In this document: in pieces, positions 60,582-64,000 of the stretch
How the letters are laid out: each line of letters starts with the position of its first letter
Position numbering within the stretch: the stretch's first letter is position 1
NCBI GenBank assembly: GCA_015272395.1
Contig: JACYLQ010000005.1
Coordinates: forward strand, 62,001 to 126,000
Direction: 5' to 3'
DNA: 64,000 nucleotides
Source of the DNA: Calothrix sp. C42_A2020_038
Lineage (GTDB): Bacteria > Cyanobacteriota > Cyanobacteriia > Cyanobacteriales > Nostocaceae
Translations under genes and position numbers: made by a program
The notes under the pieces: generated by a model
Seen by the model: the letters and a program-made list of their open reading frames with translations, nothing else
The model's database searches: none
What the model was told of the DNA's origin: nothing

Positions 60582-61806
60582 GTGATCAACACCTAACGGT
60601 ATCTAAGGTTAAAGCGCGATATACAGATTTAGCAACAAGTGAAAATGACGATGGTGATCAACACCTAACGGTATCTAAGGTTAAAGCGCCAACTGGACTC
60701 ACCAATTGAACTAACTGAGCCAACTGGTGATCAACACCTAACGGTATCTAAGGTTAAAGCGCGGGAATGGTGCCGTTTTTTTGCAACGCTCTGACTATGT
60801 GATCAACACCTAACGGTATCTAAGGTTAAAGCGCGTATGTCAAATGCTGATGTCGCTGCTGCTATTGGGTGATCAACACCTAACGGTATCTAAGGTTAAA
60901 GCGCTAGGACTGTTGGAGATGACAATGAATTCGATATTGGTGATCAACACCTAACGGTATCTAAGGTTAAAGCGCGAACAAAAGGTATCAAGTGAGGTTT
61001 TCCTTTTTCTTACCTGCAACACCTAACGGTATCTAAGGTTAAAGCGCGAACTGGGTCAAGTTGGAGTGGTACTACGCCGTCGAGCATGCAACACCTAACG
61101 GTATCTAAGGTTAAAGCGCGAACCCAGCTAATCTACGAAGTATTTCTTTTAAATTGGTTTTGCAACACCTAACGGTATCTAAGGTTAAAGCGCGAACCGT
61201 TTCATGACTAAAACAACGATTAATAACCAACGAGTGTGGTACTACGCCGTCGAGCATGCAACACCTAACGGTATCTAAGGTTAAAGCGCGAACCCAGCTA
61301 ATCTACGAAGTATTTCTTTTAAATTGGTTTTGCAACACCTAACGGTATCTAAGGTTAAAGCGCGAACCAATGAACGGATGGAAGCGGTTTTTGAAGACCC
61401 CTAGGCAACACCTAACGGTATCTAAGGTTAAAGCGCGAACGCACGAGTGGATCTAACTGTTCTAAGTCGTCTGTGCGCAACACCTAACGGTATCTAAGGT
61501 TAAAGCGCGAACTCTGCCAGGGCATTAACCTTGTCCAAAGTTAGATATGTGCGCAACACCTAACGGTATCTAAGGTTAAAGCGCGAACCTTTTTATTGAT
61601 ACACCACGCCAACAAAAATGGTGAGCAACACCTAACGGTATCTAAGGTTAAAGCGCGAACATCCATGTAACTAGCACCCATAACACCCATGTGTGGGAGC
61701 AACACCTAACGGTATCTAAGGTTAAAGCGCGAACTTAAGCATCCGCATTGTGCAAATAGCGTAGTAGAAGGCAACACCTAACGGTATCTAAGGTTAAAGC
61801 GCGAAC
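60582..61806. CRISPR. CRISPR array, 17 repeats and 16 spacers, with a repeat-phase shift
   Basis: Seventeen 36-nt repeats share a 31-nt core (CAACACCTAACGGTATC then TAAGGTTAAAGCGC). Repeats 1-5 (from 60582, 60654, 60727, 60799, 60869) add GTGAT at the left. Repeats 7-17 (from 61016, 61088, 61162, 61258, 61332, 61405, 61477, 61553, 61625, 61699, 61771) add a left G and right GAAC. Repeat 6 (60940-60979) has both flanks. Spacers are 34-40 nt, except spacer 9 (60 nt). Spacers 8 and 10 are identical. A 5-bp stem (ATACC-GTTA-GGTGT) forms on the minus strand, leaving about 8 nt 3' of it, so leftward transcription from a leader on the cas side is favoured. Confidence 0.97.
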
Positions 61807-62716
61807 TGCGTGGTTTGAAATCTTTGTTGTAAGCGCTTCTCTATCTAATTTTACAAGCACCTCTTGCAAAGAGATAAGTATGAATCGGCAAAACAGATGA
61901 AACAAGACTTTTTAGTAAAATAGATAATTGCTGTAATCTATATATTATAAGTAATTCAGCGATTTTGCAAGCACCTCTAGTTATTTTTTCCAAGCTCAAA
62001 TACCTATCAAATAAAACTTACGACTAATTTTGTTTGGCAACAGGGTTTCACAAACAGGGGTGCTTGTAATTTGATATGGGCAGGACTTACGATGTTACTG
62101 CAATTGGTTGTTGATGCATGACCCTACAAGTTTTTGTATGCCAGTTCACTAAGTCATAGCAGAAAAACCAATGGATTTTAAGTTATTATTTTCTTGTATG
62201 TAAAAAACTCTGATGCCGTTAGGCTTGGAATAAGGCAAGTCTTTGGCGTTGATCACTTTAGTGTTTAAAAGGTGTAGAACCTGCTGGTGATGCAGGGCAG
62301 GTGGGTCTAATATTACCCTTCTTGCTTATGACCTATGATGCCGTTAGGCGATAAATAATTTGCACAAGGGCTTGACAATTTGAAATAGATGTGCATAAAA
62401 TTAATTTATTACAATGTTTAGTGTCTATAAGGTAAAGCCAATTTAATTCAATTTGACTTGGGAAGATGATGTATTAACTACAGGAAGCTAACCTGTGGCA
62501 AAGCTAATGCAAGCGTCGCTTCTTATACTGTTTCATGAAACCTTGATACGAATACAGCCCCGTAAAGACAAGGTTCAATTGAGTCTTTATAAGATTCGTT
62601 TGTACTGCCATTAATGTGAAATGGTATTACCTCAGATGCCGTTAAGGTTTTGAAAATTTTTAGATATCTGGATAAGTACCCGAATATTTGAATAATTGGA
62701 ACAGGGGAATTCTGAA
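61807..62716. promoter_or_regulatory. Leader and regulatory region between CRISPR array and cas6
   Basis: About 900 bp without a gene. The motif ACAAGCACCTCT occurs near 61850 and, as GCAAGCACCTCT, near 61967, and inverted (GGTGCTTGTAA) near 62058, so it may be a leader or protein-binding element. Repeat-like fragments are at 62212-62224 (GATGCCGTTAGGC), 62245-62256 (GGCGTTGATCAC), 62337-62350 (GATGCCGTTAGGCG) and 62635-62647 (GATGCCGTTAAGG). A short ACCTGC/GCAGGT hairpin lies between the second and third. The array leader should occupy the left part and the cas promoter the right. Confidence 0.6.
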
Positions 62717-63379
62717 ATGGTCGCATCTGTAGGTTTGTCTATGTCTCGATGTGCAAGTAGTGGACTTGAGCCATTCGTTGAGTTATGTTTTCCTGTACGA
62801 GGAAAATATTTACCAGCAGATCATGGTTATGCGCTTTTTGCTGCCTGCGTTCACCTCAATCCGGAAATACGTCAGCAAGATACTCTTAGTATTTTGACGA
62901 TTCCTGGTTTTCCTGATAAGCAAGGAAAAATAATTTTGACTGAACAGTCTTGTTTACGAATTCGCGTACCCATTCCATTAATACCTTTAGTTTATAAATT
63001 TGCTGGAAAGTCCATGCATTTAGGAGTACATGAGATTCAAATTGGTATACCCGAAATATTTACTTTAAAACCAGCGGATAAACTTAATTCCAGAATTGTT
63101 GTAATTAAAGGATATAGTGAACCTGAATCTTTTTTAAAGGCAGCACAACGTCAGCTTAATGAGTTGGAGATTTCCGCTCAAGTTTCCATTCCCAAAGATA
63201 GACGAGGTGAATTGTGTCGTAAAACAATTAAAGTTAAGCGGTACACGGTAGTTGGTTTTACGACAGAAGTTTGTGGTTTAAATGAAGAAGATTCTCTGAA
63301 ATTACAGCAATGGGGAATTGGTGGTAAAAGACACCTTGGTTGTGGCTATTTTATACCTTCTCGAAGAGGTAAAAATTAA
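62717..63379 (+). CDS. cas6: CRISPR endoribonuclease Cas6 (Cmx6-like)
   Basis: A 220-residue Cas6-type crRNA-processing nuclease. The segments VELCFPVRGKYLPADHGYAL, MHLGVHEIQIGIP, NSRIVVIKGYSEPESFLKAA and LQQWGIGGKRHLGCGYFIP match my memory of the Cmx6 family (Cas6 of the Myxococcus dev-like, 'type I-MYXAN' systems), including the C-terminal Gly-rich loop typical of Cas6. The ATG at 62717 is preferred to an upstream TTG because AGGGGA precedes it by about nine bases. It should cleave the array transcript at the base of the repeat stem. The cas3 gene begins three bases after its stop. Confidence 0.85.
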   Translation: MVASVGLSMSRCASSGLEPFVELCFPVRGKYLPADHGYALFAACVHLNPEIRQQDTLSILTIPGFPDKQGKIILTEQSCLRIRVPIPLIPLVYKFAGKSMHLGVHEIQIGIPEIFTLKPADKLNSRIVVIKGYSEPESFLKAAQRQLNELEISAQVSIPKDRRGELCRKTIKVKRYTVVGFTTEVCGLNEEDSLKLQQWGIGGKRHLGCGYFIPSRRGKN

Positions 63380-63381
63380 AA

Positions 63382-64000
63382 ATGTTTAAAACTTTACTGG
63401 CTAAATCTATATCTATTCAAGAGGAGAATAATCCCAAAGCCAAAGGAGCAGCAAAATATACTGGTCACATTAGTTTAGTGATGCAAGCTGCTGATGTTTT
63501 GGTAAATAAATTAGGAGCGTCTATTCTCAAACAATTGGGTTTAGAGCATGTTGATTTGAGTTGCTTTAAGGCCACAGTTAGGTTGGGTGCATATTTACAT
63601 GATTGGGGTAAAGCTAATCAGCATTTTCAGGAAATGGTTTATTTGAAAACCATCGACGCGAAATCACCAGATCCAAAAATGCAAGAGTGTAGAAAGAGGA
63701 TTAATGATTTTGCAAAAGCGCATTCAAACAAGCAAATGTTACGTCATGAAGTGATTAGTGGCATTTTAGCTTTACAAGTGCCTAGTTTTCGAGCATGGCT
63801 AGAACAATGTCCCAATACAAATCTGATGATTGCTGTTTGGGCTGCAATGGGACATCATTTAAAAATTGGAATAGGTAAAGATGAAAAACCATCAGGTTGT
63901 ATTGCGGAAATTCTTTCTGAATCAGGAGATCAATTACAGATATATACTAAGCATTGTGATTTTCAAGCTGTTTTAAAAATGGGTAGTCAAGCTCTGGGTT
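63382..64000 (+). CDS. cas3: CRISPR-associated Cas3, N-terminal HD nuclease part (partial)
   Basis: An open frame of 206 codons runs from the ATG at 63382 off the window edge. It has the HD-nuclease pattern of Cas3: an early histidine in TGHISLVMQAADVL, the HD pair in GAYLHDWGKANQHF (about residues 73-74), RHEVISGILA and a double histidine in AAMGHHLKIGIG. The helicase part lies beyond the window. Its presence next to cas6 makes this a type I interference locus with DNA-degrading ability. The start follows cas6 by two bases, so the genes are co-transcribed. Confidence 0.9.
   Translation, partial: MFKTLLAKSISIQEENNPKAKGAAKYTGHISLVMQAADVLVNKLGASILKQLGLEHVDLSCFKATVRLGAYLHDWGKANQHFQEMVYLKTIDAKSPDPKMQECRKRINDFAKAHSNKQMLRHEVISGILALQVPSFRAWLEQCPNTNLMIAVWAAMGHHLKIGIGKDEKPSGCIAEILSESGDQLQIYTKHCDFQAVLKMGSQALG

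Follow-up and report, generated by a model that had tools for sequence, protein, structure and literature searches.

A 4-nt change of repeat register in both CRISPR arrays of a Calothrix type I-MYXAN locus, probably caused by displacement of the first repeat

Introduction

The CRISPR locus described here raises the question of how the boundary of a repeat can slip by 4 nt within a single array, and whether it was the adaptation machinery or its substrate that changed. The original prediction, made for one array, regarded the slip as a record of a changed cut site of the adaptation machinery or of two Cas1-2 complexes sharing the array. The window, i.e., the whole stretch of 64,000 nt of DNA that was analysed, is part of contig C38 in a 6.5-Mb genome of 50 contigs that belongs to the same genus as Calothrix sp. 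PCC 7716 (G001).

Register Change and Hybrid Repeat in Array 1

Array 1 contains 17 exact copies of the 31-nt core CAACACCTAACGGTATCTAAGGTTAAAGCGC at positions 60587-61802 (plus strand). Copies 1-5 carry GTGAT before the core and varying bases after it, copies 7-17 carry G before and GAAC after the core, and copy 6 (60940-60979 including flanks) has both flanks, GTGAT before and GAAC after, amounting to 40 nt; the boundary slip and the single hybrid thus proved base-exact as originally noted. That the leader lies on the cas side, a condition set in the original prediction, is borne out by its alignment with the leaders of relatives, and copies 1-5 are therefore the older ones. Read in crRNA sense from leader to tail, the array consists of eleven repeats of the form GTTC + core + C, one 40-nt hybrid (GTTC + core + ATCAC) and five 36-nt repeats (core + ATCAC), such that the older half carries the tag TTGATCAC and the newer half TTGC, again as predicted. 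The parts of the array and its leader are as follows:

60582..60939, minus strand: older section of array 1, with five spacers and five repeats still in the original register (crRNA sense, GCGCTTTAACCTTAGATACCGTTAGGTGTTGATCAC)
60940..60979, minus strand: 40-nt hybrid (GTTC + core + ATCAC), interpreted as the repeat that adjoined the leader at the onset of the shift
60980..61806, minus strand: newer part of array 1, eleven shifted repeats (GTTC + core + C) with newer spacers
61066..61368, minus strand: 133-nt duplication (61066-61198 and 61236-61368) around a new stretch of 37 nt, read as an insertion with the far cut in the next repeat-spacer unit
61803..61806, minus strand: the 4 additional nt (GTTC, crRNA sense) that separate the original start of the repeat (61802) from the canonical end of the leader (61807), giving a motif distance of 58 instead of 54 nt
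61807..61860, minus strand: 54 nt at the array end of the leader, including the conserved motif GTGCTTGTAAAAT at 61848-61860

In crRNA sense, neighbouring repeats of the newer part have 4-5 flank bases before the core in common at all 11 steps (5 nt in four pairs, as expected by chance, and 4 nt otherwise), and the four steps between old repeats have 0, 1, 0 and 0. The interval after copy 9 measures 65 nt. Folding did not distinguish old from new repeats, both of which keep their hairpin (z-scores -0.4 to -1.6).

The Same Shift in a Second Array of a Type I-MYXAN Locus

Adjacent to array 1, the window contains the first genes of a cas operon:

62696..63379, plus strand: cas6 (Cmx6, type I-MYXAN; TIGR02807, E 2.4e-68)
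63382..64000, plus strand, running past the window (807 aa in total): cas3, the first of the remaining cas genes

After cas3 follow cas8a1, cas7, cas5, a short gene without NCBIfam match, a cas4-cas1 fusion, cas2 and array 2 (L024:12223-16758). The short gene (L024:9103-9672, 189 aa, between cas5 and cas4-cas1) presumably resembles Uma2/DUF820. The locus shares with type I-MYXAN (NCBIfam cmx/dev) the cas6 of the Cmx6 type, cas8a1 (Cmx1), a DevR-like cas7, the DevS cas5 and a Cas1 MYXAN domain fused to Cas4. All signature genes of this type (cmx6/cas6, cas8a1/cmx1, DevS cas5, Cas1 MYXAN) are present, with scores above the cut-offs for TIGR02807 (230 bits, cut-off 98.85), TIGR03485 (316, 80.85), TIGR02586 (151, 111.5) and TIGR03983 (577, 358). 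The Cas proteins, including those for interference, align over essentially their full length with their counterparts in PCC 7716.

Array 2 lies 3' of cas2, beyond the window, and comprises 62 repeats, i.e., 44 old repeats, one 40-nt hybrid and 17 shifted ones, the 4-nt shift being GCAT here. Repeats 19-62 are CTGTCCAAACCTTTGATACCGTAAGGTGTTGATCAC (36 nt) with varying flanks, repeat 18 has GCAT in front and ATCAC behind (40 nt), and repeats 1-17 are preceded by GCAT and continue after the core with ATCATTCT, ATCC, AATGCTCA, AATAC or AGAAT. The leader end of array 2 differs from that of array 1, and each of the two exhibits a 4-nt shift and a single hybrid. That both arrays gained the same number of bases may point to a common cause. 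Among the old spacers, those at repeats 26 and 33 (L024:14148 and L024:14651) are identical but for one base, which would fit two acquisitions from variants of the same invader.

The second array also bears on the quality of the assembly. In a draft genome of 50 contigs, internally duplicated arrays are hard to assemble, and two arrays with different repeats might have been merged into one, an objection that the original prediction had itself raised. It would have to account for one hybrid and the same shift in each of two separate arrays and for 4 extra nt that adjoin the leader sequence at both ends, which is not expected from a collapse, and we regard such an artefact as extremely improbable. 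Two further candidates were rejected. Origin of the terminal C of the repeat from the PAM, proposed because this base is constant in 17 of 17 array 1 repeats, is at odds with the newer repeats of array 2, which drop the C, and in array 1 the C could have been handed down from repeat 11. The other candidate, a single slip of the first cut into the array 1 leader, does not agree with the present cut at the canonical leader distance, nor with the same shift in array 2.

Leader Distance in Relatives

For comparison, 54 loci with relatives of the Cas4-Cas1 protein were fetched and supplemented with further loci from genome searches, yielding 66 repeat groups with at least 3 repeat copies each, distinct leader ends and 1,408 copies altogether; the set includes a few small degenerate groups, and groups at the end of a locus are partial. 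The downstream side of the relatives' repeats was judged from consensus columns. Their units measure 36 nt, or 35 nt in L054 and L061. The usual end is TTGA[GT]CAC, some ending in G, T or otherwise, and many share the end TTGATCAC with the old repeats of our arrays. The comparison with related arrays that had been recommended at the outset set the two arrays apart: none of the 66 groups (1,408 repeats) contains a run of upstream-shifted repeats, in contrast to the 4-nt shift in both arrays studied here. The longest run of neighbours with the same three upstream bases is 3 in relatives (5 groups) as opposed to 12 in array 1 and 18 in array 2, and the shared flanks in both arrays are therefore not due to chance.

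With up to 4 mismatches allowed, the leader motif GTGCTTGTAAAAT was detected in 56 of the 66 groups (it was not found in 10), and in 51 of these 56 its distance to the repeat is 54 nt. In both arrays of our genome it is 58 nt. The five exceptions among relatives lie at 53 nt (explained by a repeat of 35 nt), 55, 55, 56 and 60 nt, the last with a degraded first repeat. In the nearest relative, Calothrix sp. PCC 7716 (L029), all 50 repeats are in the normal register, and its leaders align by eye without gaps to ours and end where the extra 4 nt start. Since this alignment extends to the start of the PCC 7716 repeats, the extra 4 nt separate the leader from the repeat, and cutting has taken place at the ancestral site since the shift.

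An exact-pattern scan of 217 genomes of the family returned 12 junctions in 11 genomes, of which 11 measure 83 nt and only our own 87 nt. In a second such scan of the 217 genomes seven matched, six with 83 nt and the seventh (89 nt) with a degraded first repeat. As the patterns matched just 11 and 7 of the 217 genomes, the family was sampled thinly. Two observations on congeners may be added: in G002 (L112) the first half of the leader-adjacent repeat of one array is degraded, and in array 1 of PCC 7716 (L029:1062-2933, minus strand) the three oldest repeats end in C and the 22 newer ones in G, which we read as another inherited tag change.

Taken together, we consider it likely, with a probability of roughly three in four, that the shift in both arrays is explained by a displaced first repeat and an integrase that measures from the leader. 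According to this explanation, the leader-side cut stayed in place, and it was the first repeat of each array that became separated from its leader by 4 extra nt. The integrase would set its first cut by leader distance, 54 nt from GTGCTTGTAAAAT, and would thus cut 4 nt upstream of the repeat; those 4 nt would be copied into every new repeat, and the repeat adjoining the leader at that moment would be left behind as the single 40-nt hybrid. We infer from the conserved spacing that the integrase measures from the leader. The change in the cut site of adaptation originally proposed holds insofar as the new units are cut differently. It does not hold for the leader-side cut, which is unmoved at 54 nt from the motif as in nearly all relatives, the first repeat being 4 nt too far away. 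The 4-nt insertions might conceivably be scars of failed insertions. One relative (L066) has a distance of 56 nt and no shifted repeats and therefore counts against the explanation by displaced repeats; either a longer distance need not shift the register, or the change in L066 postdates the last spacer or sits elsewhere in the leader.

A Probably Inaccurate Far Cut

The position of the far cut was estimated by comparing each newer repeat with its older neighbour, taking the length of the copy past the core, small values of which include chance matches. From old to new, these lengths are 0, 2, 2, one long event, then 1, 1, 6, 1, 3 and 1 nt in array 1, the long event reaching through one whole further unit to 23 nt inside the next spacer (the 133-nt duplication). 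In array 2 they are 4, 12, 3 and 1 nt, a long event into the third repeat (8 nt), 8, 3, 5, 24, 1, 5, 5 and 5 nt and a long event into the second repeat (5 nt). Old repeats share stretches of 5-7 nt past the core, i.e., 5 nt plus chance. By this reading of the copies, there would have been 10 leader-end events in array 1 and 14 in array 2, some 24 rounds. In each of the three long events the copies are separated by a new stretch of 33, 36 or 37 nt, which is the length of a spacer, and insertion with a displaced far cut therefore fits better than plain recombination. In addition, a 35-nt spacer was inserted in array 2 across a repeat-spacer border with an exact duplication of 36 nt; it corresponds to an array 1 spacer in opposite orientation. 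On the evidence of this insertion, the exact 36-nt duplication is taken to give the length of the ruler.

With a displaced first repeat, the second cut would receive conflicting cues and become inaccurate. In array 1 it would mostly fall about 36 nt from the first, and the crRNA tag would thereby lose its ATCA; in array 2 the second cut would wander, most often to the old repeat end (40-nt units), and the last repeat bases would then stem from the neighbouring spacer. As each altered unit would serve as template for the next, such errors would be inherited.

The crRNA Tag and a crRNA-like Guide Upstream of cas6

An 8-nt tag of the type TTGA[GT]CAC at the end of repeats of constant length is found in the old repeats of both arrays and is missing from the 11 and 17 newer ones; this feature, like the leader distance, was drawn from the relatives compared here and not from a definition of type I-MYXAN. 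If the shifted units are cut 8 nt ahead of where the old repeat ended, TTG plus five other bases would remain, i.e., TTGC plus four spacer bases in array 1 and TTGAGAAT, TTGAATAC and others in array 2, where the tag TTGATCAT of three repeats comes close to the normal one. The newest units of array 2 regain a tag length of 8 nt (TTGAGAAT), and crRNAs from them may work.

With regard to the tag that works in this system, two elements upstream of cas6 are informative:

62245..62256, plus strand: crRNA-like element, handle GGCGTTGATCAC, which keeps TTGATCAC; its guide starts at 62257
62414..62436, plus strand: target of the crRNA-like guide, ATG followed by 20 nt matched at 16 of 20 positions, upstream of cas6; the matched site lies 160 nt on from the guide

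The crRNA-like element has thus kept the TTGATCAC that was lost from the newer repeats. The scan covered our own locus plus 40 relatives in which cas6 was matched, and a handle was found within 700 nt upstream in 14, 12 of which (our own and 11 relatives) were kept by eye; L036 and L044, with best matches of 12 and 13 of 20 and no ATG, were left out. ATG precedes the target in all 12 kept cases. The target follows at 159-166 nt in nine of them, at 121 nt in L058 and at 99 nt in L082, and in L054 it is on the other strand. Type I effectors tolerate a mismatch at every sixth base. Guide mismatches in the 12 cases number 10 at position 6, 4 at position 9, 6 at position 12, 10 at position 18, 7 at position 19 and 5 at position 20, and there are none at positions 1-5, 7, 8, 10 and 11, bearing in mind that the scan tolerated no more than one mismatch among the first eight bases, which limits positions 1-8 as a group and not which of them differs. 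The guides support TTGA[GT]CAC as a candidate working tag and ATG as a candidate PAM. The element is a candidate CreR-like Cas-regulating guide, in accordance with its handle and a guide that matches a PAM-adjacent site upstream of its own cas operon. In the 11 relatives guide and target co-vary, and type I-MYXAN systems of cyanobacteria appear to regulate their own cas operon in this way.

Self-Matching Spacers Are Confined to the Newer Parts

Exact matches to the own genome outside the arrays were found for 4 of 24 distinct post-shift spacers and for none of 49 pre-shift spacers (Fisher p 0.0098). Distinct spacers were counted by hand with duplicates dropped (number 9 of array 1 and numbers 1, 14 and 15 of array 2), and the pre-shift set consists of 44 spacers of array 2 and five of array 1, none of which matched at E 0.01. 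The four self matches span 36-38 nt at 100% identity, the next best non-array match having E 0.04. Going by the translations of the matched genes, spacer 10 of array 1 corresponds to a GumC/Wzc-like exopolysaccharide gene (contig C5), spacer 6 of array 1 to groEL (C40), spacer 6 of array 2 to a kinase-like gene (C7) and spacer 9 of array 2 to a gene for 405 aa (C24). The AGAAT end common to repeats 1-5 of array 2 first appears in repeat 6, inside the self-matching stretch. Of the four matches, one is immediately preceded by ATG, one has ATG at spacer bases 1-3, one has it at bases 4-6 and one has none nearby, which is too few to judge. None of the spacers in the 48 intervals of the two PCC 7716 arrays matches exactly elsewhere in its genome; one interval of 195 nt contains a dispersed repeat, and there is one 30-nt match with 90% identity. 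When both arrays were searched against phages, no match appeared, and matches in plasmids (66-86% identity) look like related arrays. A search of viral contigs with four spacer pieces, of some 73 distinct spacers and three of them post-shift, yielded no protospacer.

If the first repeat is displaced, new crRNAs with a wrong tag or an out-of-register guide would be inactive, and spacers matching the own genome exactly could persist. Judging from the altered units, the post-shift crRNAs are probably inactive and the newer memories non-functional; adaptation is most likely ongoing with defective products. Alternatively, the self-matching spacers could persist by lack of a correctly placed PAM.

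Adaptation Proteins and Other cas1 Genes

The original prediction had advised a search for two cas1 genes or a cas1 mutation. The genome has six cas1 genes, and its Cas4-Cas1 departs at positions 28, 76, 99, 340 and 353 from residues that are 90% conserved in 43 relatives, none of these positions being E, H or D in the relatives. The nearest relative shares all of these departures except the one at position 28. At this position our protein has H in place of the P found in 42 of the 43 cyanobacterial relatives and the R found in one (L038), and three distant relatives have E. The neighbouring C27 is presumably a cluster cysteine. Cas2 exhibits no change unique to our genome at conserved positions.

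It is conceivable that the adaptation proteins themselves changed, by mutation of Cas4-Cas1 or loss of a host factor, and that both cuts moved in both arrays at once. The involvement of both arrays, the sloppy far cut, the unique H28 beside C27 (42 of 43 relatives having P and one R) and the restriction of exact self matches to post-shift spacers agree with this. On the other hand, the leader-side cut is at the canonical distance, and extra DNA at both leader ends is required anyway. Position 28 varies elsewhere, too (R in L038, E in three distant relatives), and the lack of a unique change in Cas2 does not help the case, such that a change in the adaptation proteins appears unlikely. Far less probable still is that another Cas1-Cas2 of the same genome captured both arrays and imposed its own register. 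Six cas1 genes would offer the means, but the post-shift cuts occur at this system's own leader position, the five arrays found near other cas1 genes have different repeats with a unit that is fixed at consensus level, and the 36-nt duplication of the internal insertion equals the length of the locus's own old repeat. Two Cas1-2 complexes sharing one array, as once envisaged, are not needed, given insertions at the own leader position and the fixed units of the other arrays. From the arrays themselves we conclude that both carry a real, inherited register change, which displaced repeats explain better than a changed leader-side cut would.

Discussion

In ruler experiments with the type II-A system of Streptococcus thermophilus, altered repeat lengths left the leader-side cut exact, displaced the far cut and led to copying of neighbouring spacer bases and to spurious sites (PMC6895254). 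There, indels were engineered inside repeats, whereas here the extra bases precede the repeat and have passed through about 24 natural rounds by our reading. Ectopic insertion, with a spacer placed away from the leader end, is reported for Streptococcus thermophilus in two publications (PMC5338259, PMC7999890). The internal insertion reported here differs from these in that it crosses a repeat-spacer border with an exact 36-nt duplication and is accompanied by a register change at the leader end. Self-matching spacers beside altered repeats are considered ineffective through PAM or repeat defects in a review that cites Stern 2010 (PMC6990116). In contrast to those cases, our arrays have a repeat defect that affects the units systematically and in order along the array, and all four exact self matches came after it. 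Type I-G Cas4/1 fusions function in prespacer processing and orientation and favour an overhang of about 7 nt (PMC10504553), which does not explain a 4-nt insertion. The portions of the open-licence literature covered contained no report of a natural register shift. Compared with the type I-MYXAN relatives, it is this shift by which the locus stands out. Repeat rulers have reportedly also been studied in Haloarcula and in Pyrococcus.

We tentatively suggest, as a rather less secure step than the displacement as such, that one event or lesion shifted the first repeat of each array by 4 nt and uncoupled adaptation from interference, with about 24 rounds of unreadable memories, including such of own genes, and with the error as a heritable state of the array. 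If displacement of the first repeat is the true reading, it would be the leader rather than the repeat that determines the first cut, and the second cut would depend on the agreement of both. The two arrays would then constitute a natural experiment on measuring by the CRISPR integrase, with the before and after preserved inside each array, and could be used to test if autoimmunity requires the crRNA tag. Repeat boundaries as delivered by array software can mask newer memories that may not work.
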